Below are positions 14,758-34,250 of a stretch of 64,000 nt of DNA, in pieces. A model generated the notes under the pieces. That model worked only from the letters and a program-made list of their open reading frames with translations. It was not told the DNA's origin and did no database searches. Position 1 is the stretch's first letter. Each line of letters starts with the position of its first letter. Source of the DNA: Candidatus Sulfopaludibacter sp. SbA3 (GTDB taxonomy: Bacteria > Acidobacteriota > Terriglobia > Bryobacterales > Bryobacteraceae); NCBI GenBank assembly GCA_945893365.1, contig CAMDED010000016.1, positions 1 through 64,000 on the forward strand, read 5' to 3'. The translations under genes were made by a program, and so were the position numbers.

Positions 14758-14832
14758 CGCACGAGGCGCGAAGCATGCGGCGGCCAGCCGGACCAATGGC
14801 CAAGGCCTATAATTGGGAAAGGTAGATACTCA

Positions 14833-17538
14833 ATGGCGATGTGGCCTGTGGCGTTTTTCCTCATGGCGGCCGGGACGTTTGAATCCGACGTCCTGCCCCT
14901 TTTCCGCTCGAAGTGTTTCACGTGCCATAGCGAGAAGGCGCAGAGCGGCGGGCTGTCGCTTGAATCGCGGGAGAGTATTCTCCGGGGCGGCAAATCCGGC
15001 GGCGTCATTGTGCCGGGCAAACCAGTGGACAGCCTGCTGATGACTCTCGTCTCAACCGGCAAGATGCCGATGGGCGCGGCAAAGCTCAGCGCGATCGAGA
15101 CGGCCGCGATCCGGACTTGGATCGAGCGCGAGGATCGGAAAGCGCCCGTATCCGAGCGCGACGTCACGGCGATTCTCAGCGCAAAGTGCTGGGTGTGTCA
15201 TGGGCGCCGCGAAAAGATGGCGGGGCTCGATCTGCGGACGCGCGAGTCGATGCTGAAGGGCGGGAAATCGGGTCCGGTGATCGTGGGCGGTAAACCGGAA
15301 GCCAGCCTCCTGATCAAGCGGATCGCGGCGCAGGAGATGCCGCCGCCGAAACTCCAGGAACAGTATTCGGTGCGAGGGCTAACGGATGATGAACTGGCAA
15401 AGGTGCGGCAGTGGATCGTCGATGGGGTTCGTCCGGATAACGAAAAGCCACTCGAAGTGAGCGTCGCGGACGATGCCGCGATCAAGCCGAAAGACAGGGA
15501 GTTCTGGGCCTTCCGCGCGCCTCTAAGACCGCCGGTGTCCGCGCTACGGGCGCCGGCGCGAAACGCGATCGATGTCCTGACGATGGAGCAGAAGCCGCTT
15601 GCGCCGGAGGCGGCCGATCTAACCTTGATGCGGCGAGCCTGGTTCGATTTGACCGGGCTGCCGCCGTCTCCTGAAGAAGTGGAAGCGTTCCGCGCCGATC
15701 GCGATCCGAAGCGCTACGAGAAGCTCTTAGACCGGCTGCTCGAATCGCCGCATTACGGCGAACGCTGGGCGCGGCATTGGCTCGATGCGGTGGGATATAC
15801 GGACAGCGAAGGCGGCAATAGCGGCGACCAACTTCGTCCTCATGCCTGGCGGTATCGCGACTACGTGATTCGCTCGTTCAACGCGAACAAGCCGTATGAC
15901 CGGTTCCTGACCGAGCAACTGGCGGGCGATGAGCTGTTCGACTACCGCTCGGCGAAGTCTCTGACGCCCGGTCGGATCGAGTTGATGGCGGCCACCGGCT
16001 TTTGGCGCACCGCGCCCGATGCCACTTACAGCACCGAACAAAACTTCATCCCCGAGCGCATGGATGTGATCGCGGGACAATTGGAAGTGTTGGGGTCGGC
16101 GGTGATGGGGCTGTCCGTCGGCTGCGCGCGCTGTCACGACCACAAGTACGACCCGATCCCGACGCGCGATTACTACCGGCTGGTGTCGATCCTCACGCCC
16201 GCGTACGACCCCTATCACTGGCTTCCCCCGGTGTTCCCTTGCGGCGGCGTGGGCGCGAAGTGCGATGAGAACGGCACGCGCTACTTCCTCCCGAAGGCGA
16301 CGCCGGAATGGCAGGAGGCCACGGCGTTCAACGACCCTGTGACGCGGCGGATCGAGGAACTGCAGAAGCGGATTGAAGAGAAGGCGGCCCCTTACCGCGA
16401 GAAATACCTGGCGGAGAAGAAGGTTAAGGAAGCCAAGCTCGGTGAGCTCGAAGCGGCGTACGAGCCGTTCAAGAGGGAGAAGGCCGCAATCGACGAGCAG
16501 ATCCGCAAGGAGAGGGCGAATCTCAAGCCTCTGCCGCTCGTGCGCGCGCTGTTCGATCTCGGTCCGGAGCCGCCTCCGACGCGCATTCTGATGCGCGGCG
16601 ATGCGACCAGTCCCGGCGCTTTGGTGACGCCTGGCGCGCCCTCCATTTTGAATGCCAGCGGGCGGGATTATCGCCTGGAGCCGCTCGCGCACTCCTCCGG
16701 ACGGCGGTTGGCGCTCGCGAAGTGGCTGACGCATCCCGAACATCCGCTGACGGCGCGTGTGGCGGTGAACCGCATCTGGCAGCATCATTTCGGCGTAGGC
16801 CTGGTCGCTTCCCCCGGCAACTTCGGCCGCATGGGCTCCGCGCCCGAAAATCAGAAGCTGCTCGATTGGCTGGCTTCGGAGTTTGTCGCGAGCGCGTGGG
16901 ACGTGAAGGGCATGCACCGGCTGGTGATGACCTCGGCGACGTACCGCCAGCAATCGGGCGACAGCGGATTCCCGCTGCGGCGCATCGACGCGGAGTCCGT
17001 GCGGGATTCGATTTTGAAGATCGCGGGGCGCCTCGACACGAAAGCCTTCGGCGCGGCGGATCCGATCAAGCCGCAACCCGATGGCGAAGTGATCACCGAA
17101 AGCCTGCGGCGAAGCGTGTACGTGACGCATCGGCGAACCCAGCCGATTTCGCTGCTCGAGACATTCGACCAGCCGTTCATGAACCCCAACTGCGTAAGGC
17201 GCGGGCTGTCGGTGGTTTCCTCACAGGCGCTGCACCTGATGAATGGAGACCTGGCGCGAGACAACGCGCGCTTCATGGCGGGGAGAATCATCGATGCGGT
17301 AGGTGACGACGCAGCGGCACAGATTGAGAGGGCCTATCTGCTGGCGTTCGCGCGCAAGCCCACTGCGGATGAATTGCAGGCCGCTACGTTTGCGATGGAA
17401 GGGGCGAGTAAGGAATGGGCGAAGGACCTTGAAAAAAACCAGCCCGCCGAGCCGGTGAAGAGCCGCTCCCGGTGGCTCGGCCTCGCCACCGTTTGTCACA
17501 CGCTGATGAACTCGGCTGAGTTTTTATACATTGATTGA
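14833..17538 (+). CDS. Planctomycete-type cytochrome c with PSCyt1, DUF1549 and DUF1553 domains
   Basis: This 901-residue exported protein has a short signal segment (MAMWPVAFFLMAAG). Two consecutive PSCyt1 haem domains follow (C28-F-T-C-H32 and C119-W-V-C-H123), then DUF1549 (about 230-440, with a third CxxCH, C431ARCH, in the conserved GCARCHDHKYDP) and DUF1553 (about 620-880, VNRIWQHHFG). A charged coiled segment (about 500-560) lies between them. The function of these proteins is not established. They always pair with DUF1501 proteins, as here, and are thought to take part in periplasmic polysaccharide breakdown. The carrier of a second haem domain makes it longer than the homologue at 52086. 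Confidence 0.9.
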   Translation: MAMWPVAFFLMAAGTFESDVLPLFRSKCFTCHSEKAQSGGLSLESRESILRGGKSGGVIVPGKPVDSLLMTLVSTGKMPMGAAKLSAIETAAIRTWIEREDRKAPVSERDVTAILSAKCWVCHGRREKMAGLDLRTRESMLKGGKSGPVIVGGKPEASLLIKRIAAQEMPPPKLQEQYSVRGLTDDELAKVRQWIVDGVRPDNEKPLEVSVADDAAIKPKDREFWAFRAPLRPPVSALRAPARNAIDVLTMEQKPLAPEAADLTLMRRAWFDLTGLPPSPEEVEAFRADRDPKRYEKLLDRLLESPHYGERWARHWLDAVGYTDSEGGNSGDQLRPHAWRYRDYVIRSFNANKPYDRFLTEQLAGDELFDYRSAKSLTPGRIELMAATGFWRTAPDATYSTEQNFIPERMDVIAGQLEVLGSAVMGLSVGCARCHDHKYDPIPTRDYYRLVSILTPAYDPYHWLPPVFPCGGVGAKCDENGTRYFLPKATPEWQEATAFNDPVTRRIEELQKRIEEKAAPYREKYLAEKKVKEAKLGELEAAYEPFKREKAAIDEQIRKERANLKPLPLVRALFDLGPEPPPTRILMRGDATSPGALVTPGAPSILNASGRDYRLEPLAHSSGRRLALAKWLTHPEHPLTARVAVNRIWQHHFGVGLVASPGNFGRMGSAPENQKLLDWLASEFVASAWDVKGMHRLVMTSATYRQQSGDSGFPLRRIDAESVRDSILKIAGRLDTKAFGAADPIKPQPDGEVITESLRRSVYVTHRRTQPISLLETFDQPFMNPNCVRRGLSVVSSQALHLMNGDLARDNARFMAGRIIDAVGDDAAAQIERAYLLAFARKPTADELQAATFAMEGASKEWAKDLEKNQPAEPVKSRSRWLGLATVCHTLMNSAEFLYID

Positions 17539-23367: not shown

Positions 23368-24978
23368 ATGACGTTTACAATCGGAAAGAAATTCAGCTTG
23401 GCCTGCGCGGTCCTGGTCTTATTCACCATCGTGCTGGGATCCGTCTCCATTTACAACATTAGCGGCATCAACACGAACTTGCAGGCTATCGTGGTCGACT
23501 CCTTGCCTGGCGTCGCGACGATCGCCGAGGTGCGGGGACGCGTCTTGCAGATTCGGGGCGGCGCCTGGAAGCATATTGCCACTCCGGACACAAGCGCGAT
23601 GGAAAAGGTCGACGTTGAGATTGCCGGTCTGAAGCAGCAGGCCGCGGAGTTCTTGCAGGCGTACGAAAAGACCATTACGCTGGCCGAGGACCGGGCGATA
23701 TACAGCCGGCTGCGGCCGCAGCTCGATGCTTACTTGGCAGCTTGGGAAGGGGTGCAAAAACTGAGCCTGTCAAAACAGAAGCCCGAGGCCTACGCCGGCT
23801 ACATCTCCAGCGTCGACCCGCCTTTTCTCCAACTCCGGGCCTCCATCAACGAACTGGTTGAATGGAACAAGCGAAACGGGGAGGTGAACGGCGTGGCCGC
23901 GACGGAAGCCGGCAGCCGGGCTCAGTTCTGGTGCTGGTCTCTACTGGGCTTCGCAGTCCTGGCGGGAAGCTTGCTCGCCTTCCTTATCACGAAAAGCATC
24001 AACGGCGTTCTAAGACGGGCCATCGGCGAACTCTCCGAAGGCGCCGGGCAGGTGGCGAGCGCGGCCGGACAGGTCGCTTCCTCCAGCCAGTCGTTGGCGC
24101 AGGGCTCCTCCGAGCAGGCGGCATCGCTCGAAGAGACCTCCGCTTCGAGCGAAGAGATCAATTCCATGGCGCGCAAGAACACCGACAACTCGCGCACGGC
24201 GGCCGATCTGGTGACCCAGTCGCAGCAGAAGTACGTTCAAACCAACCAATCGCTCGACCAGATGGTGGTGGCGATGGCCGACATCAACACGCAGAGCGAC
24301 AAGATCGCCAAGATCATCAAGGTAATCGACGAGATCGCCTTCCAGACGAATATTCTGGCTTTGAACGCAGCCGTCGAAGCGGCCCGCGCCGGTGAAGCTG
24401 GAATGGGCTTTGCAGTGGTGGCCGATGAGGTTCGAAATCTGGCGCAACGCTGCGCGCAAGCGGCCAAGGACACGGCGGAGCTGATCGAGGAATCCATCGC
24501 CAAGTCGAAAGACGGCAGGGTGAAGGTGGACCAGGTGGCGACGGCGATCCGGACAATCACGGAAGAATCATCGAAAGTGAAGACGCTGGTGGATGAAGTA
24601 AACCTGGGCAGCGAGGAGCAGGCGCGCGGCATCGAGCAGATCGCCAAAGCGATCACGCAGATGGAACAGGTGACACAGAAAACAGCGGCCAATGCCGAAG
24701 AAAGCGCATCGGCAGCCGAGGAACTGACTGCGCAATCGGAGACCTTGAAAGACGTCGTGGCGCGGTTGACAGCGATGGTGGGCGGCGAGGCTTCTAACGG
24801 CCCGGCTCGTCCCACTCATCGCCGGAGCGCCCAGGCTTCGGCTCCACGCCATCAGAAGGGAACGGCTGCCGTGCGAAGAGCGGCGCCGAAATCGACGGAA
24901 CAGCGGGCGCCGGTTCTCGCCGCGCGCAACGCGAGTGAAGACGCTTTCCCCATGGACCAGGACTTCAAGGAGTTCTGA
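23368..24978 (+). CDS. Methyl-accepting chemotaxis protein with 4-helix-bundle sensor
   Basis: This 536-residue transmembrane chemoreceptor has a first membrane helix at about 10-32, a periplasmic four-helix-bundle sensor (about 33-190), a second helix near 192-212 and a long cytoplasmic coiled-coil signalling domain. The tip motif [20 protein letters not shown] binds CheA and CheW. No full HAMP domain is evident; the helix runs almost directly into the signalling part. The Gln/Glu-rich [17 protein letters not shown] region holds likely methylation sites. The tail is Ala/Arg/Pro-rich and ends in DFKEF, a candidate CheR-docking pentapeptide. The signalling domain is nearly identical in DNA to that of the receptor at 27274. 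Confidence 0.92.
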
Positions 24979-25066
24979 TCCCGGCGGGCGGCGTCGAGCA
25001 CACAGAACCGCGGACTTTCGCCGTAATGCCGGCGGAGAGGTTCAGCAGTTAGGAGAAGAGAATCTT

Positions 25067-26593
25067 ATGAGAAGGCAGCTTACGATTGGAAAGAAACTGG
25101 CGATCGGCGTGACCGCCTTCATAGCGTGCCTGGCGGTGCTCAGCATCACATCGCTAAGGGTGATCTCGACGCTAGGCGGCTCGCTCGACGCGGCGGTAAA
25201 CGGCACGGGGAAGAAACTCGTTCTGATCGGCGGAACGCGGGAAGCGTTCCAGGAAATGAAGGACGCGGCGTTGCGAGCGCAAATCCCATATGCGATTGCC
25301 GAACTGCAGCGGCATTCCGCCGCCACGCAAGGGAGTTGTTCAGGTTGCCATGCGCCCGCCCCCGTCGAGGAGAGCCTCCGCGAGATCGAGGCCGGCGCCG
25401 GCGTGCTTAGACGGCAGAGCGGCGAACTGCGGCGCCTGGTTTCCGATGAAACGGCGCGAAAGGCTCTGGATACCCTGGACAGCGGGGCTACGCAGTTTGT
25501 GGACCACGCTAAAGAGTATCTGAAACTGGCTAGTGGCAATCGTTTCGACGACGCTCATTCCGTTCTCCGGGACAAGATGTTACCCATCCTCGGGGAGACC
25601 GAGAAAGCGGACAAACTTCTGGCCGAGCGGGAGAGGGAGGCGCTGAGCGCCTCGAACGAGCAGGCTCAGACGAAAATCACCGGGGCGCGCTGGGCCGTAG
25701 TCATAGTCATCGGCATCAACCTGCTTGTGGCAGTCGCCGTGCTCTGGGTGGTCTTCAAAATCACTTCCGCGTTGCGCCAGGTGGCGCTCGAAATGGGAAA
25801 CGGGGCCGAGGAAGTCGCGGCCGCGGCCTCACAAGTTTCTTCCTCCAGCCAATCGCTGGCGCAAGGATCCTCCGAGCAGGCGGCGTCGCTTGAGGAAACC
25901 TCGGCGTCGAGCGAGGAGATCAACTCCATGGCGCGCAAGAACAGCGAATCCTCACGCTCGGCGGCCAGCCTGGTGACGCAGTCCCAGCAGAAGTTCGTCC
26001 AGGCCAACCAGTTGCTGGACGAGTCGGTTGTGGCGATGGCCGATATCAACGAGCAGAGCGGCAAGATCTCGAAGATCATCAAGGTCATCGACGAGATCGC
26101 CTTCCAGACCAATATTCTGGCGCTGAACGCAGCCGTCGAAGCGGCCCGCGCGGGTGAAGCGGGGATGGGCTTTGCGGTGGTGGCCGACGAGGTGCGCAAC
26201 CTGGCGCAGCGTTGTGCCCAAGCGGCCAAGGACACGGCCGGGCTGATCGAGGAGTCGATCGCCAAGTCCCACGGCGGCAAGCTGAAAATCGATCAGGTGG
26301 CCGCGGCGATCCGGGCGATCACCGGGGACGAGGCGCAGGTGAAGACGATGGTCGACGAGATAAACCTCGGCAGCCAGGAACAGGCGCGGGGGATCGAGCA
26401 GATCGGCAAAGCGATCGCACAGATGGAGCAGGTCACACAGAAAACGGCGGCCAACGCCGAGGAGACCGCGGCGGCAGCCGAGGAGCTGACCGCGCAGTCG
26501 GAGACCTTGAAGGCCGTCGTCGAGTCGCTGATGTCCATGGTGGGCGGCGGAGAGGCGGCCGAAGAACGCATCGGCACCGGAAGAGCAGATTAA
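25067..26593 (+). CDS. Methyl-accepting chemotaxis protein with a c-type haem motif in its sensor
   Basis: This 508-residue chemoreceptor has membrane helices at about 11-33 and 205-228. Its periplasmic domain contains C91-S-G-C-H95, a covalent haem c attachment site, followed by a helical bundle. Haem-bearing MCP sensors are known to respond to redox state, oxygen or nitric oxide; that role is inferred here. The signalling domain has the standard tip ([17 protein letters not shown]) but ends soon after it, in GTGRAD, without the DFKEF tail of its two sister receptors. I start it at ATG 25067, 6 nt from AGGAGAAGAG; a longer in-frame extension overlaps the previous gene and has no family support. 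Confidence 0.9.
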
Positions 26594-26713
26594 TGAGTTT
26601 TAACCCAAGGGCCGATAGGGTTGGTGAGACATCAACCTGGCGGCTGGTGGGCGAAAGAATCTCACGCTGCGTCGAAAGCCGCGGCCCGAGAGGGAAAGCA
26701 TAAAGGAGCAAAC

Positions 26714-27235
26714 ATGGAATCGACAGTCTTAGAGAGAGAAACGGCCACTGGTCTCAGCAAAGGAGACGATCGTGGCGGCAAGTATCTGGTGTTTCACCTG
26801 GGCGCGGAGGAATTCGGGATTCGGGTTCTGAAGGTCCGGGAAATCATGTGCATTCAGGACATAACGGCGGTTCCGCACACGCCGCCCCATGTCAAGGGAG
26901 TGATCAACCTCCGCGGGAAGGTAATTCCGGTGGTGGATCTGCGCCTCAAATTCGGCATGCAGGAGCAGGAGTACACGCAGCGGACCTGCATCATTGTGGT
27001 CCAGGTGCGGGGCGAGGCGGGTCTCATGATGATGGGCATTGTGGTGGACGGCGTGGCCGAAGTGCTCAACCTGGCGGCGGCGGACATTGAGGACACGCCG
27101 AACTTCGGCGATGGAACGGCGACGCCTTACTTGTTGGGTATGGCCAAGGTCAAGGGGAAGGTGAAAATCCTGCTCGAGATCGAACAGGTGTTGACCAGCC
27201 AGGATATGCACGCGCTCCACGCGTTGGTGCAGTGA
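26714..27235 (+). CDS. cheW: Chemotaxis coupling protein CheW
   Basis: This 173-residue CheW couples chemoreceptors to the kinase CheA. The CheW fold is clear from YLVFHLGAEEFGIRVLKVREI, AVPHTPPHVKGVINLRGKVIPVVDLR and the C-terminal LLGMAKVKGKVKILLEIE. A loosely conserved 20-residue N-terminal leader precedes it. AAAGGAG lies 8 nt upstream of ATG 26714. The gene sits between the second and third MCP genes, as in many dedicated chemosensory operons. Confidence 0.95.
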   Translation: MESTVLERETATGLSKGDDRGGKYLVFHLGAEEFGIRVLKVREIMCIQDITAVPHTPPHVKGVINLRGKVIPVVDLRLKFGMQEQEYTQRTCIIVVQVRGEAGLMMMGIVVDGVAEVLNLAAADIEDTPNFGDGTATPYLLGMAKVKGKVKILLEIEQVLTSQDMHALHALVQ

Positions 27236-27273: not shown

Positions 27274-28905
27274 ATGAAACTATCTACAAAACTAAACAGC
27301 ATCGTGGGAACGCTCGCCCTGACGGGGATACTCCTCGCCGGCGCCGGAATCTGGTACCAACGGGCGCTTGGCGAGGAACTGACCACCGCGACGGAGAAGA
27401 TTGCGGTGAGGATCGACCTGGTCGGCGACATTTGGTCAGATTTTTGGGAGGCGGAGGCCGCCCGTCGGGGAACGTTCATCTTCTCAAGCCTCAAGAATCA
27501 GGCTCAGCTTGACGCGAGCGCGCTCCAGGCGAACGCCGCTTTCAAGCGGGTGGTCGAGGGCATCCGCGCGTTACGGCCGCTGCTGATTCTAGAAGAGAGC
27601 AAAAAGGAACTGGCGGCAATCGAATCGGGCATCGGCGACTACGAGAAGGGGTCCGCCGACTACATACGCCTTTGCAGGGAACAGAAGTTTGATCAATTGG
27701 GTCCCGTTATGGCCGCGGCGAATGGGTTCGCACGCGTGGCGGACAAAGGTCTCGGGTTTCTGGCGGAGCAGCAGAAGACGCTTCTGAAGGAGTCGCAGGC
27801 ACGCGCCGAGTCTCTCAAGTCACAAAGCCTGTCCGTCAACATCTTCATGAGCTGCCTGCTCCTGGCGATCGTGGTTGGAGCCATCTTTGTGGTGCGGACT
27901 ATCAACCGGACACTTGTGTCGGCCGTCGGCGAGCTTTATGAAGGCGCCGAGCAGGTGGCCTCCGCAGCCGGCCAAGTCTCATCCTCCAGCCAGTCGCTGG
28001 CGCAGGGTTCCTCCGAGCAGGCGGCATCGCTCGAAGAGACTTCCGCATCGAGCGAAGAGATCAATTCCATGGCTCGCAAGAACACCGACAACTCGCGCAC
28101 GGCGGCGGACCTGGTGACCCAGTCGCAGCAGAAGTACGTTCAAACCAACCAATCGCTCGACCAGATGGTGGTGGCGATGGCGGACATCAACACGCAGAGC
28201 GACAAGATCGCCAAGATCATCAAGGTGATCGACGAGATCGCCTTCCAGACCAATATTCTGGCTTTGAACGCGGCGGTAGAAGCGGCCCGCGCCGGTGAAG
28301 CTGGAATGGGCTTCGCGGTGGTGGCGGATGAGGTTCGAAACCTGGCGCAACGCTGCGCGCAAGCGGCCAAGGACACAGCCGAATTGATCGAAGGATCGAT
28401 TTCCAAGTCCAAAGACGGCAAAACGAAGGTCGACCAGGTGGCGACGGCCATCCGCACCATTACCGAGGAATCGGCGAAGGTGAAGACGCTGGTGGACGAA
28501 GTGAACCTGGGCAGCCAGGAGCAGGCGCGCGGCATCGAGCAGATCGCCAAAGCGATCACGCAGATGGAGCAGGTGACGCAGAAAACGGCAGCCAATGCCG
28601 AGGAAAGCGCATCGGCGGCGGAAGAACTGACCGCTCAATCGGAGACGTTGAAGGACATCGTGGGGCAGTTGACGGCGATGGTGGGCGGCGGAGAGGCTTC
28701 CAGTAGCCATGGACGTCCCGCCCATGGCCGGACCGCCAACGCACCGGCTCCCCGCAAGCAGAAGGAATCCGGCAGAGGTGCGACTGCCACGCGCAGGGCG
28801 GTTTCGCCCCCGGCGAGATCGGCGGAGCACAAAGCGCCGGTTCTCGCCGCGCGCGCCGCAAGTGAAGACTCCTTCCCGATGGATGAGGACTTCAAGGAGT
28901 TTTAG
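27274..28905 (+). CDS. Methyl-accepting chemotaxis protein, third receptor of the operon
   Basis: This 543-residue transmembrane receptor has membrane helices at about 9-30 and 188-210, a periplasmic helical-bundle sensor different in sequence from the other two, and a signalling domain whose DNA is almost the same as that of the receptor at 23368 (for example 28120-28200 against 24220-24300). Such local identity between diverged sensors points to duplication or gene conversion. The C-terminal linker is Ala/Arg/Pro-rich and the protein ends in DFKEF, like the first receptor. AGAAGGAGA lies upstream of the ATG. Confidence 0.92.
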
Positions 28906-28983: not shown

Positions 28984-31014
28984 ATGTTAAATGCGGAAAC
29001 AGAATCGCTTTTGCGGGATCGAATCGACGATCTCTCCACTCGACTTTTGATCGAGGGCACGGAAGCCTTTGGCGACGGCCCGGAGCACTTCCAGGCCGCG
29101 CTCGCGGAGCTCGCTTCGAAGGCGGGCGATGCCGGCTATGGCGAAGCGGCCAAAATTGCCGGGGATCTCTGCGCCAACCTCGCAGGGGACGCGGCCGCTC
29201 CACCGGCGATGCATCGCCTCCAAGCGGGACTGGTCCAGCTTCAGCAGGCCCTCTCGAACGCCGCGAGCGATTCCGGGGCCACGCTTGCCGCGGTACCGGA
29301 ACGGCCGGAGACCACCTCATCCCTAGCCGAGGATCCGGAACTCATCGCCGATTTCATTATGGAATCGCGCGAGCATCTGACCTCCGTCGAACAGTGCCTC
29401 CTCACGCTCGAACGGGATCCCACCGACGCGGACGCCATCAACTCGGTCTTTCGCGGATTCCACACTATCAAAGGTCTGGCCGGATTCCTGGAGTTCACTC
29501 CGATCCAGGAAGTGGCTCACGAAGTGGAAACGGCCCTCAACATGGCTCGCGAAGGGCAGCTCACGATCACCCCGCCTGTGATCGACGTCATTCTGGAAAG
29601 CGTCGACTACCTCAGCCGGGAGCTCGCGGCGGTCGAGTCCAAATCCCGCTGCGAACGCCTGCCCGGCCACGACCGCCTGCTCGATCAAGTCCGAGCCCTG
29701 ATGGCGGAGAAATCCGGCGATCGGGAGACAGCGGCGCCGGAGACGGCAGCGCCGCAATGGGAGTTGGATGCCGCAGCTCCACCAGAGCGGGAATTGGAAG
29801 CCGCGTCTCAGCCGGAGCGCGATGTCAAGAAGGCGGCCGCGGCGGCCGAATCTCTGTCGGTGCGGGTGGATACGGCCAAACTGGACCACCTGGTAGACAT
29901 GATGGGCGAGATGGTGATCGCCCAATCGCTGGTCCGGCATAGCCCAACCATCACTGGCGCGAGCGATCCGCGGGTGCAGCGCGATCTGGCGCAGTTGACC
30001 CGCATTACCGGCGAAGTGCAAAGGACCGCCATGGCTATGCGGATGGTCCCGATCGGGCAGCTTTTCCAGCGATCGGCCCGTCAGGTGCGCGACCTCTCGC
30101 GGAAGATCGGCAAGCAGGCGGAACTCGTTACCCGGGGCGAAGATACAGAAGTGGACAAGACTATCGCCGAGAAGCTCGCCGATCCGCTGATGCACATGGT
30201 GCGCAACGCGATCGACCATGGAATCGAAACGCCCGCCGCGCGCGAGGCGGCCGGCAAGGCTCCGCAGGCGAAGGTCACTCTGGCCGCATACCACCAAGGG
30301 GGCCAGATCGTGATCGAGGTCTCCGACGACGGCGGCGGACTGAACTCCGAGAAGATTCTGGCCAAGGCCCGCTCGAAGGGCCTCGCCGTAGACGGCGGGC
30401 ACCTTTCGGAGAACGACATTTTTCGGCTGATTCTCGAACCGGGGTTTTCCACCGCGGACAAGGTGACCGATATCTCGGGGCGCGGCGTGGGCATGGACGT
30501 GGTCCTCAGGCAGGTGGAGAAACTCAGGGGCCGTATCGAGATCCGTTCGAAGGCCGGGCAAGGCACTACATTCCTGATGAAGCTGCCGCTCACTCTGGCC
30601 ATCATCGACGGCCTGGTCGTGACCGTCGGCGGCCATCGATACATCATGCCTCTGTATGCGGTGAGGGAGATGTTCCGTCCCGCGGCTGAGTCGATGTTCA
30701 CCGTCCGGAATCGCCAGGAGATGGTGATGGTGCGTGGGCGGCTGCTGCCGGTCCTGCGGCTATACAAGCGGTTCGGCCTCGTCCCGCGGACCGAAGACCC
30801 GTGCCAGGGTTTGCTGATCGTCGCCGAGAGCGAGGGAGAGTTATTCTGCCTGATGGTGGACGATCTGATCGGCAAACAGGAAGTCATCATTAAGAGTCTT
30901 GGGGAAGGACTGGGGAACGTGCCCGGCGTCGCCGGGGGCGCGATTCTCGGCGATGGCCGCGTCGGACTGATTCTCGACATGGGCGGTCTATGGGGGGCTC
31001 GTGCCAGCTCTTGA
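28984..31014 (+). CDS. cheA: Chemotaxis histidine kinase CheA
   Basis: This 676-residue CheA autophosphorylates under receptor control and passes phosphate to CheY and CheB. From N to C it has a helical segment (1-95) that looks like an Hpt fold without a phosphorylatable His; a true Hpt domain with H160 in FRGFHTIKGLAGF; an acidic/proline linker (about 245-285); the P3 dimerisation helices; the ATPase domain with the N box HMVRNAIDHGIE, DDGGG and GRGVGMDVV; and a C-terminal CheW-like P5 domain. There is no separate P2 domain that I can identify. The extra N-terminal helical segment is unusual. The stop lies 14 bp inside cheR. Confidence 0.95.
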   Translation: MLNAETESLLRDRIDDLSTRLLIEGTEAFGDGPEHFQAALAELASKAGDAGYGEAAKIAGDLCANLAGDAAAPPAMHRLQAGLVQLQQALSNAASDSGATLAAVPERPETTSSLAEDPELIADFIMESREHLTSVEQCLLTLERDPTDADAINSVFRGFHTIKGLAGFLEFTPIQEVAHEVETALNMAREGQLTITPPVIDVILESVDYLSRELAAVESKSRCERLPGHDRLLDQVRALMAEKSGDRETAAPETAAPQWELDAAAPPERELEAASQPERDVKKAAAAAESLSVRVDTAKLDHLVDMMGEMVIAQSLVRHSPTITGASDPRVQRDLAQLTRITGEVQRTAMAMRMVPIGQLFQRSARQVRDLSRKIGKQAELVTRGEDTEVDKTIAEKLADPLMHMVRNAIDHGIETPAAREAAGKAPQAKVTLAAYHQGGQIVIEVSDDGGGLNSEKILAKARSKGLAVDGGHLSENDIFRLILEPGFSTADKVTDISGRGVGMDVVLRQVEKLRGRIEIRSKAGQGTTFLMKLPLTLAIIDGLVVTVGGHRYIMPLYAVREMFRPAAESMFTVRNRQEMVMVRGRLLPVLRLYKRFGLVPRTEDPCQGLLIVAESEGELFCLMVDDLIGKQEVIIKSLGEGLGNVPGVAGGAILGDGRVGLILDMGGLWGARASS

Positions 31015-31858
31015 CGACACCTCCTGCCGCCCGCTGAACGCGAGCGAGTTCGAAAAGATCCGCCGGCTCGCTTATGACACGTTCGGGCTTGACCTGCGGA
31101 CCGGCAAAGAGACCCTCGTGTCCACGCGCCTCGGCAAGCATATGCGCCAGTCCGGATGCAGGTCCTTCGACGAGTACTACCAGTTCGTGGTTGGGGACTC
31201 GACCGGGAAGTCGCTCATCAATCTGATCGATGCGCTCACCACCAATCACACGTCGTTCTTTCGCGAGCCGGCGCATTTCGATTTTATGCGAAAGGTCCTC
31301 CTGCCGGAGTGGAAGAACCGCGGAAAGATCGACATCTGGAGCGCCGCATGCTCGAGCGGCGAAGAGCCGTACACGATCGCCATGTGCCTTTTGGAGGAGC
31401 TCGGCACGATAGCGCCCGGAAAGGTCCGTATCCTGGCGACGGACATTTCCACGAAAGTGCTGGCAAAGGCCGGACAAGGGACCTATCCGGCCGAGCGTCT
31501 CGAGGGCATCCCCGATTCCCAGCTTCGGAAGTATTGGCTGCGCGGCGAGGGCGAATGGGCCGGCTGGTACCGGGCGAAGAAAGACATGCGGGCTCTGATG
31601 GAATTCCGCCGCGTGAACCTGCTTGAGCCCGTGTCTCAGATGGGCCGCTTCGCGCTCATCTTCTGCCGCAACGTCATGATCTACTTCGACAAGCCGACTC
31701 AGCAGCAGGTGGTGAAACGCCTGGGCGACTGCCTGGAGCCGGGCGGCTACCTGCTGACAGGCCACGCCGAGAGCCTCACCGGAATCTCGCATGGACTCGA
31801 ATACGTCCAGCCCGCGGTTTACCGCAAAGGCTCCTCGGGCGGCCGGGAGAAAGGGTGA
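31001..31858 (+). CDS. cheR: Chemoreceptor methyltransferase CheR
   Basis: This 285-residue SAM-dependent enzyme methylates glutamates on the MCPs. The small N-terminal helical domain (about 1-75) is followed by the methyltransferase domain with NHTSFFREPAHFDF, the SAM-binding WSAACSSGEEPYTIAM, ATDISTKVLAKA and the late motif FALIFCRNVMIYF. It starts with GTG 31001 inside the 3' end of cheA and ends overlapping the cheD ATG. Two nearby receptors end in a pentapeptide of the type that some CheR enzymes dock to. Confidence 0.95.
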   Translation: MPALDDTSCRPLNASEFEKIRRLAYDTFGLDLRTGKETLVSTRLGKHMRQSGCRSFDEYYQFVVGDSTGKSLINLIDALTTNHTSFFREPAHFDFMRKVLLPEWKNRGKIDIWSAACSSGEEPYTIAMCLLEELGTIAPGKVRILATDISTKVLAKAGQGTYPAERLEGIPDSQLRKYWLRGEGEWAGWYRAKKDMRALMEFRRVNLLEPVSQMGRFALIFCRNVMIYFDKPTQQQVVKRLGDCLEPGGYLLTGHAESLTGISHGLEYVQPAVYRKGSSGGREKG

Positions 31859-32370
31859 TGGTGACCCTGTTGACAGTCGGAGTGGGGGATTGCAAAGTCA
31901 GCAATACCGCCGAATCGGTGCTCGCGACCTACGCGCTCGGGTCGTGCATCGCGGTGGCGATTTACGATCCGGTGGCCAACGTCGGGGGTCTGCTGCATTT
32001 CATGCTGCCGGAATCTTCGCTGAACCCTAACAAAGCCAGCCAGAACCCGGCCATGTTCGCCGACACCGGAATTCCGATGCTGTTTCACGCCGCGTACGGA
32101 CTAGGCGCCGAGAAGCGCCGTTTGGTGGTGCGGGCGGCGGGCGGGGCGCAGGTGATGGACGAGTACGGCGTGTTCAACATCGGAAAGCGCAATCACCTGG
32201 CGCTGCGAAAGATCATGTGGAAGGCCGGGGTGATGATCCAGGGCGAAGAGGTCGGGGGGACGACGCCCCGCACGGTGCGGCTGGAGGTTTCGACCGGCCG
32301 CTTTTGGATCCGCGAATCCGGGTTGGCGGACCGGGAAATGCTGGCGCCGGCACACGGCAAGGGGCGATGA
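31855..32370 (+). CDS. cheD: Chemoreceptor glutamine deamidase CheD
   Basis: This 171-residue CheD deamidates receptor glutamines and can act as a partner of CheC/CheX-type phosphatases. The catalytic residues match the known Thermotoga arrangement with a constant offset: T25, C31 (in YALGSC) and H48 (in GLLHFMLP). Further family segments are FNIGKRNHLALRKI and GGTTPRTVRLEV. It overlaps cheR by 4 bp and cheY by one base. The start is an ATGATG pair, with the first at 31855. Confidence 0.94.
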   Translation: MMVTLLTVGVGDCKVSNTAESVLATYALGSCIAVAIYDPVANVGGLLHFMLPESSLNPNKASQNPAMFADTGIPMLFHAAYGLGAEKRRLVVRAAGGAQVMDEYGVFNIGKRNHLALRKIMWKAGVMIQGEEVGGTTPRTVRLEVSTGRFWIRESGLADREMLAPAHGKGR

Positions 32371-32762
32371 TGGAACTCCAGGTTTTGATTGTGGACGATT
32401 CTCCGGTCATGCGGGCATTCATCCGCCGCGTGTTGGATCTGTCCGGTTTAGTGGTGAGCCGCTGCCTTGAGGCATCGAACGGCGAAGAGGCATTGCGGTT
32501 GCTCGAAAACAACTGGGTGGATGCGGTGCTCACCGACATCAACATGCCCGAAATGGACGGCGAAGAACTGCTGCGGCGGATGTCCGAACACGACGTGTTT
32601 CGTTTGATCCCGGTTCTCGTAGTGTCCACGGACCGCACCGAGGGGCGCATCCAGAAGATGCTCAGCCTGGGGGCGAAGGGGTATGTCACCAAACCCTTCG
32701 CACCGGAAACCTTGCGGGAAGTACTGGAACAAAGCTTGGGGGTGGTTAATGGAAGCGAATGA
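32370..32762 (+). CDS. cheY: CheY-like single-domain response regulator
   Basis: This 130-residue receiver domain has the acidic pocket D9-D10, the phosphoacceptor D56 (LTDINMPEMDG), S86 at the switch position (VVSTD) and K108 (YVTKPF). It is the diffusible output of the CheA in this operon. The ATG is part of an ATGATG pair (32367 and 32370). I chose the second because GGGG lies 5 nt upstream. The 3' end overlaps the cheX gene by 14 bp. Confidence 0.93.
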   Translation: MELQVLIVDDSPVMRAFIRRVLDLSGLVVSRCLEASNGEEALRLLENNWVDAVLTDINMPEMDGEELLRRMSEHDVFRLIPVLVVSTDRTEGRIQKMLSLGAKGYVTKPFAPETLREVLEQSLGVVNGSE

Positions 32763-33210
32763 AATCAAGACGGCATTGGCCTCGGCGGTCGAGGATGTCC
32801 TCGAAACCATGTGCTTTACCACCGTGCTCTCGAGCGAGCAGGGGACCGTCCCGCGGGGAGTGGACGGTGGCGCGCTCGCGATCACGGCGGCGTTGCGCTT
32901 CCATGGCTGCCCATCGGGCGGGTTTCGCGTGAGCGTCCCACAGACGTTAGCGCGGGTACTGGGCGCCGGATTCTTGGGCGTCGACGAGTCGGAAGTATCC
33001 GATGCCCAAGCCGGGGACGTGGTCTGCGAGCTGGCTAACATGATCTGCGGCTCGGTGTTGAGCCGCCTGGAAAGCGAAACGACGTTCCGGATCACCCACC
33101 CGGAACTGATTCCAGCGGAACCGGGCTTCGAGGGCCCGAGTACGTGCGGCCGGTTCGACCTTGGAGACGGGGTCCTCACCGCTTCTCTGCAACTTCAGCA
33201 GGCCATATGA
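32749..33210 (+). CDS. cheX: CheX-family CheY-P phosphatase
   Basis: This 153-residue protein of the CheC/CheX/FliY phosphatase family dephosphorylates CheY-P to end the signal. The single active-site motif ExxN is E94-L-A-N97 in GDVVCELANMICGSVL, followed by the amphipathic helix and a C-terminal beta hairpin. One motif per chain is the CheX arrangement (CheC has two). Its ATG 32749 lies within the end of cheY. The stop overlaps the ATG of cheB. Confidence 0.85.
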   Translation: MEANEIKTALASAVEDVLETMCFTTVLSSEQGTVPRGVDGGALAITAALRFHGCPSGGFRVSVPQTLARVLGAGFLGVDESEVSDAQAGDVVCELANMICGSVLSRLESETTFRITHPELIPAEPGFEGPSTCGRFDLGDGVLTASLQLQQAI

Positions 33211-34250
33211 CCAAGATCAAAGTCCTGATCGTCGATGATTCCGCGATCGTGCGCAAACTCCTGTCCGAAGCGCTGTCGGATGAGCAGGATATCGAAGTGG
33301 TGGGAACCGCGCCCGACCCGTTTGTGGCTCGCGACAAGATCCTCGCGCTGAAGCCGGACGTGCTGACGCTCGACATCGAGATGCCGCGCATGGACGGGTT
33401 GACGTTTCTCAAGAAGCTGATGCACTACCAGCCGATGCCGGTCGTGGTGATCAGCTCGCTCGGCCAGGCCGGCTGCCAGGCAACGATGGAGGCTCTGCGG
33501 CTTGGGGCGGTTGATGTGCTGGGTAAGCCCGGAGGTCCGTACTCGGTAGGAGAGCTGAAGGTGGACCTGGCGGCCAAGATTCGAGCGGCCGCGGCCGCCC
33601 GCCTGCGGCGCGCGCCGGCGGAGCCTTCCGCGAAGCAAGAGCCGCCTCCGCTACTGGCGGCTTCCGATGGCTCCGCCATCATCGCGATCGGCGCTTCGAC
33701 GGGAGGAACGGAGGCGATCCAGTCGGTTCTCTTGGGGATGCCCGCGAACAGCCCCGGCATGGTGATCACGCAACACATTCCGGCCGTCTTCTCTCTGGCC
33801 TTCGCCAACCGTTTAAACGAAATCTGCCCGATGGAGGTCAAGGAGGCGCGGGACGGAGATACGCTCACGCGCGGCAGGGTCCTGATCGCTCCGGGCAATT
33901 TCCATATGCTCCTGCGGAAATCCAATGGCGGAGGATATCGGGTCACCGTCCAGGACGGACCCCGGATCTGCTACCAGAGGCCGTCCGTGGACGTGATGTT
34001 CAGCTCCGTGGCGGAGGCGGCCGGTTCGAACGCGGTGGGCGTGATCCTCACTGGAATGGGTTCCGACGGCGCACGCGGGTTGCTGAAAATAAAGCAAACC
34101 GGCGCGAGGACGATCGCACAGGACGAGGCAAGCTGCATTGTGTTCGGGATGCCGAAGGAAGCCATCCGGATGGGCGCGGCGGATCAGGTGGCGTCCTTAA
34201 GCAGAATACCCGCGGCGATTCTAGGCCAATTGAGCCGGATCGGGCGATAG
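33207..34250 (+). CDS. cheB: Chemotaxis methylesterase/glutamine amidase CheB
   Basis: This 347-residue CheB demethylates and deamidates receptors when phosphorylated. The N-terminal receiver domain has D10-D11 and the phosphoacceptor D56 (LTLDIEMPRMDG). The C-terminal esterase has the catalytic triad S164 (GASTGG), H190 (VITQHIP) and D287 (GMGSDGARG). The start is an ATGA overlap with cheX. With cheR and cheD this gives a complete receptor-adaptation set. Confidence 0.95.
   Translation: MTKIKVLIVDDSAIVRKLLSEALSDEQDIEVVGTAPDPFVARDKILALKPDVLTLDIEMPRMDGLTFLKKLMHYQPMPVVVISSLGQAGCQATMEALRLGAVDVLGKPGGPYSVGELKVDLAAKIRAAAAARLRRAPAEPSAKQEPPPLLAASDGSAIIAIGASTGGTEAIQSVLLGMPANSPGMVITQHIPAVFSLAFANRLNEICPMEVKEARDGDTLTRGRVLIAPGNFHMLLRKSNGGGYRVTVQDGPRICYQRPSVDVMFSSVAEAAGSNAVGVILTGMGSDGARGLLKIKQTGARTIAQDEASCIVFGMPKEAIRMGAADQVASLSRIPAAILGQLSRIGR

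Follow-up and report, generated by a model that had tools for sequence, protein, structure and literature searches.

The closest described counterparts of the receptor analysed here are the periplasmic sensors of the sCache_heme group (DUF3365 or Tll0287-like; PF11845), such as GSU0582 and GSU0935, in which, likewise, a CxxCH motif lies in a short insert of a pre-existing periplasmic sensor fold of a chemoreceptor or kinase (PMC12889525, accessible text). In the same accessible text, NO-sensor-like or redox roles are proposed for these domains, and a signalling-type member is described as binding NO tightly without forming a stable O2 complex. For GSU0582 and GSU0935, the available portion of PMC8396549 reports a redox-linked spin change together with NO and CO binding. 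DcrA of Desulfovibrio vulgaris also appears there as an MCP with a periplasmic c-type haem involved in redox or oxygen sensing, a likeness that we draw from this description. How receptors with a four-helix-bundle (4HB) sensor perceive oxygen-related signals is named as a key gap in a 2026 review of aerotaxis (PMC13401364, accessible text). A full-text literature search, which included the accessible parts of PMC3831638, PMC8396549, PMC3460858, PMC13401364, PMC8846402 and PMC12889525, returned no haem-c four-helix-bundle chemoreceptor; most subscription papers lay outside its scope, and an earlier mention is possible.

Here, we examine a chemoreceptor gene of the acidobacterium Candidatus Sulfopaludibacter sp. 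SbA3, located in a stretch of 64,000 nucleotides (contig CAMDED010000016.1, positions 1 to 64,000; hereafter, the window). We consider it probable, at roughly 0.72, that its product is a transmembrane chemoreceptor carrying one covalent c-type haem at the tip of a 4HB sensor, with H95 and H164 as iron ligands and with the haem tied to signalling through helix 4. The gene, its features and its chemotaxis neighbours are as follows:

23368-24978, forward strand: sister MCP with an ordinary 4HB sensor and a DFKEF tail
25051-25055, forward strand: AGGAG (sequence), which we take, by its consensus, to be a ribosome-binding site
25067-26593, forward strand: MCP of 508 residues with a predicted haem-c type four-helix-bundle sensor (ORF; MCPsignal, 150.9 bits)
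25097-25165, forward strand: transmembrane helix 1, residues 11-33 (hydropathy)
25316-25363, forward strand: tip loop joining helices 1 and 2, residues 84-99, which holds the extra residues (model; length compared with non-haem relatives)
25337-25351, forward strand: C91-S-G-C-H95, predicted c-type haem attachment motif (codons; invariant in 29 of 29)
25556-25558, forward strand: H164, in the opening turn of helix 4, predicted to be the second axial ligand of the haem (29 of 29 conserved; model)
25691-25759, forward strand: transmembrane helix 2, residues 209-231 (hydropathy)
25970-26437, forward strand: MCP signalling domain (PF00015 profile)
26621-27235, forward strand: CheW as the listed ORF; on inspection of the sequence, the ATG at 26714 is the likelier start
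27274-28905, forward strand: sister MCP with a DFKEF tail
28984-31014, forward strand: CheA
31001-31858, forward strand: CheR
31855-32370, forward strand: CheD
32683-33210, forward strand: CheX-like phosphatase
33144-34250, forward strand: CheB

The receptor ORF starts with ATG and is open throughout. Two hydropathy peaks, near residues 11-33 and 209-231, delimit a periplasmic sensor flanked by two membrane helices, the arrangement of an MCP, and the codons of C91-S-G-C-H95 fall between them, which agrees with the placement of the motif in the preliminary description and puts a CxxCH, as in c-type haem proteins, in an exported domain. The signalling domain was matched by PF00015 at 150.9 bits against a cut-off of 34.6; no HAMP domain was found by Pfam in this receptor. 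As a background, CxxCH occurs 7 times in 84,062 residues of the six-frame stop-to-stop frames of at least 60 residues in the window, so that a chance occurrence within a 170-residue stretch has a probability of about 1.4%. Elsewhere in the window, a 926-residue open frame (14758-17535, forward strand) contains three CxxCH motifs and is possibly a cytochrome-like protein.

The gene is the second in a run of MCP, CxxCH MCP, CheW, MCP, CheA, CheR, CheD, CheX and CheB, and is thus linked to a chemotaxis kinase system encoded downstream; the two ordinary receptors previously noted in the same operon are the sister MCPs on either side. A role as an electron carrier without signalling is ruled out by the full MCP output domain and the che operon. 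The host genome also encodes a flagellin and machinery for haem attachment: three PF01578 matches score above the cut-off, and a Ccm cluster on contig C35 comprises CcmE, CcmF, CcmB, a CcmC-like protein and an ABC ATPase, with a CcmH match just below the threshold (24.0 against a cut-off of 25).

To follow the sensor beyond the window, genome profile searches covered this phylum. In a single-sensor search of 61 genomes (the own genome and relatives), matches were obtained in 11, and CxxCH is present at each of the five top-ranked places in other genomes. A profile built from five haem sensors was then run over 237 genomes of the window's family and matched 121 of these at E <= 1e-6. We fetched 30 loci from this profile search and 60 further stretches, two of which were repeats. 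CxxCH is present in this sensor in at least 30 places and at least 29 of the 237 family genomes, own genome included; these counts are lower bounds because the weaker matches were not all fetched or listed. The two sensors closest to that of the window (53% and 48% identity) come from an Acidobacteriia MAG and the Bryobacterales MAG isolate bog_375. Across the phylum (396 genomes, about seven candidates scored per genome), 10 genomes match at E <= 1e-10, and the own genome alone matches strongly (5e-82; next 1e-21); one other CxxCH was found among these matches, at a different place (L136, of the second type described below). The sister family (18 genomes) yielded one weak match, without CxxCH, and the plasmids searched by tblastn gave no match. 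Two relatives are broken: in L052 (G035:C40), an internal deletion fuses the start of the sensor to the receptor tail, and L027 (G017:C1) stops soon after the second membrane helix.

In one genome (G194; L031, L143:6902-10396), the same haem sensor is fused to a kinase instead of an MCP output, a partner that we take from its sequence to be a PAS-PAS-histidine kinase. We compared the proteins encoded around the CxxCH receptors elsewhere (18 stretches of 4.7-15 kb, L142-L156 and L159-L161) with the Che proteins of the window. In 17 of the 18, there is no Che homologue but the receptor; the exception, L150, has CheW and an MCP nearby. A Pfam scan of 18 neighbouring ORFs at 11 loci (17 of the 24 listed ORFs, plus one more) revealed no partner gene common to the haem receptors. 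The sole recurring domain among these ORFs, at two loci, is DUF2721, encoded directly upstream of the haem MCP on the same strand (L148:1560-2489 and L152:6613-7173).

We aligned 29 haem sensors, namely, the window sensor and those of 28 loci, leaving out L052 with its internal deletion. Although these sensors are 18-52% identical to the window sensor, four columns, and only these, are invariant: C91, C94, H95 and H164, the last of which is absent from the preliminary description; the next best are P173 (28/29), Y151 (27/29) and L40 (25/27). That description had named lack of conservation in orthologues as grounds for abandoning the haem site, and the motif proves to be invariant (29/29). With an invariant, periplasmic CxxCH, an equally invariant H164 and a Ccm cluster in the genome, the predicted covalent haem site is strongly supported by inference.

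Histidine occupies column 164 in all 29 rows with CxxCH, compared with two of the 66 rows without it (95 rows with a letter there). The Fisher value for this co-occurrence, 2e-22, ignores kinship, and, because the profile behind the column derives from five haem members, the alignment and the tree lean towards the haem group. In a FastTree phylogeny of 84 rows, in which the loop 76-104 and columns 72 and 164 were masked, a single branch with support 0.95 splits the 27 full-length haem sensors from 57 non-haem sensors. The 29 members are therefore not 29 independent events, and the haem group, as far as the alignment can tell, probably arose once. The haem clade is neighboured by four non-haem rows, L054, L061, L088 and L096, among which L054 and L096 are the two that have the histidine without CxxCH. 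Because these two adjoin the clade, the histidine may predate CxxCH; their sequences suggest either this order or a loss of CxxCH. Given its occurrence in L054 and L096, H164 may serve an older function, or it may be a ligand to the haem of the partner subunit.

The sensor fold was predicted with AlphaFold2 for residues 1-245, using the haem-sensor alignment. The model (mean pLDDT 90.1) consists of helices at 7-83, 100-124, 128-156 and 160-244, without strands. The top Foldseek rows were chemoreceptor ligand-binding domains, none of them at E 0.001. With VIA-align, the best match was PcaY_PP (Z 15.3, rmsd 2.4, 132 aligned), along with Tsr (Z 14.3, rmsd 2.4, 138 aligned) and Tar (Z 13.1, rmsd 2.6, 142 aligned). 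Because designed helical bundles reach similar scores (6egc, Z 15.0), the fold assignment leans also on Pfam: 4HB_MCP_1 (PF12729) is matched by 27 of the 29 haem members at E <= 0.1 and by the window sensor domain alone at 31.6 bits (cut-off 27), whereas the whole window protein scores 20.6 bits in two stretches, below the cut-off. NCBIfam has no family for the window sensor, although its GlnX is touched by 14 of the 29 haem members, and no haem 4HB sensor was among the matches listed in the PDB profile searches. We therefore regard the sensor, whose model is an up-down four-helix bundle of the 4HB_MCP_1 kind, as a predicted Tar/Tsr-type bundle.

Segment 56-110 comprises 51-75 residues (median 56) in 27 haem members and 38-41 residues (median 38) in 57 non-haem members; the haem members are thus longer by about 18 residues, and this excess falls in the CxxCH-bearing tip loop between helices 1 and 2. 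The arrangement of an up-down bundle brings that loop to the same membrane-distal end as the beginning of helix 4, where H164 lies, and it is from this topology that the proximity of H95 and H164 is argued. The spacing of F160, H164, L167, M171 and I174 would place H164 on the inward face of the helix.

An alternative, which we consider unlikely, is an attached haem c for which H164 does not serve as a ligand. The iron would then be five-coordinate, or have methionine or water as the sixth ligand, with H164 serving elsewhere, for example, at a dimer interface, and the receptor would be an open gas sensor, a mode proposed for sCache_heme domains fused to signalling modules. There are precedents for such coordination, His/water in GSU0582 and, in the GSU0935 dimer, a His/water haem beside a His/Met haem (PMC8396549, available portion), and L054 and L096 keep H164 without CxxCH. 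However, H164 equals the motif itself in its invariance, no methionine column is invariant, and the other 64 of the 66 rows without CxxCH have a different residue at column 164.

Far less probable still is that CxxCH, with H95 and H164 contributing further metal ligands, binds a zinc or iron ion, or that it works as a disulfide or thiol redox switch. The composition Cys2-His2 is also that of metal sites, and all four residues, C91, C94, H95 and H164, are invariant. Yet all 29 rows have the exact order and spacing C-x-x-C-H that the cytochrome c attachment machinery recognises, and the exported domain belongs to an organism that has a Ccm cluster. Finally, it is scarcely credible that CxxCH is fortuitous, or in decay, in what is otherwise an ordinary 4HB receptor: the internal deletion of L052 and the early end of L027 fit decay, but invariance in 29 sensors 18-52% identical to that of the window contradicts it, and conservation in at least 30 places rules out a chance motif.

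For the reading with H95 and H164 as iron ligands, the analysis establishes the predicted fold class, the conservation of C91, C94, H95 and H164, the operon, the haem-attachment genes and the flagellin gene. From this point, we infer the haem attachment, the His/His ligation, the identity of the stimulus and the movement of helix 4. The haem would be held by C91 and C94 in the enlarged helix 1/2 loop at the membrane-distal tip, with its iron bound from opposite sides by H95 and by H164, a residue of the first turn of helix 4, and would thereby tie the tip loop to helix 4. In Tar and Tsr, the signal passes through the second membrane helix by slight displacements of helix 4. A redox change, or binding of NO or CO that displaces H164, could alter the restraint on helix 4, and release or re-seating of this helix would alter CheA activity. 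By analogy with GSU0582, GSU0935 and the sCache_heme group, it is plausible that the receptor senses redox or gas ligands; if so, this acidobacterium receptor would steer by redox state or by a gas such as nitric oxide, not by a nutrient. Because the predicted ligand is at the start of helix 4, the signalling helix of Tar and Tsr, the coupling of haem to receptor should be directly measurable.

The adaptation of this receptor had been suggested to differ from that of its sisters, on account of its C-terminus. The sister MCPs (23368-24978 and 27274-28905) end in DFKEF and the CxxCH receptor in GTGRAD, so the tail is indeed absent; however, its absence is not special, as 8 of 14 non-haem family receptors also lack it. 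The tail is present in the other six of these 14 (all from the window's family; a separate phylum-search list was left out of the count) and in two of the six own-genome receptors above the MCPsignal cut-off, the other four lacking it. Among the haem receptors, none of the 24 with a readable C-terminus ends in F/W-x-x-F/W/Y (the end of L051 is doubtful). The three frames read across 26501-26760 contain no DFKEF tail just downstream. At the 3' end of the gene (26540-26600, forward strand), a shifted frame closes with EEQINEF and a stop codon, which faintly resembles the tails of the sisters, so the tail may have been lost by frameshift; when this end is compared with six real tails, 2.7-28% of shuffles reach its score, and the likeness does not clearly exceed them. 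CheR is tethered by such tails, and arrays of mixed receptors usually include untethered ones; no special adaptation follows.

A further type of CxxCH sensor was found in another class of the phylum. L172 (G314:C30:44944-45573) and L173 (G403:C30:26800-27423), both MCPs, have CxxCH (CASCH and CDACH) in the loop between helices 3 and 4, the second of the two membrane-distal tips. These were two of the seven places in the search that returned them, and they look like a second, separate haem 4HB type.

Among other proteins of known structure, the soluble cytochrome b562 entry 2bc5, a weak match (E 0.18), is likewise a four-helix bundle with CxxCH. It is a soluble electron carrier with the motif near the C-terminus, its c-type linkage is engineered, and there is no evidence for common descent with the window sensor. 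The 4HB_MCP_1/TarH sensors (Tar, Tsr, PcaY and MCP2201) share with the window sensor the fold, the membrane topology and the place in an MCP. To our knowledge, and judging from structure titles, they bind small molecules without a covalent cofactor; the window sensor differs from them in the approximately 18 extra tip residues with CxxCH and in H164. The haem domain of DcrA is listed among PAS domains (PMC8396549, available portion), unlike the 4HB of the window sensor. Membership in the sCache_heme group is ruled out, given that 4HB_MCP_1 is the sole family matched by the window sensor at E <= 0.1 and that the model of the sensor lacks strands. PF11845 is absent among the 25 of 27 families listed for the 29 haem members, and it gave no match in the own genome, in a search where no control gave a signal either.

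The sCache_heme fold is the alpha/beta Cache fold, in contrast to the all-helical bundle modelled for the window sensor, and the second haem ligand is reported as Cys, Met or water in sCache_heme but predicted as His here. We give about even odds to the broader proposal that insertion of CxxCH in the helix 1/2 tip, opposite a histidine of helix 4, turned a Tar/Tsr-type sensor into a haem-c sensor, in which ligation clamps helix 4 and redox change or NO drives it, with the L172/L173 type as a second such event, in parallel to sCache_heme. A separate haem case in 4HB, an unrelated and the best understood chemoreceptor fold, would make the acquisition of haem c seen in sCache_heme a recurrent route.
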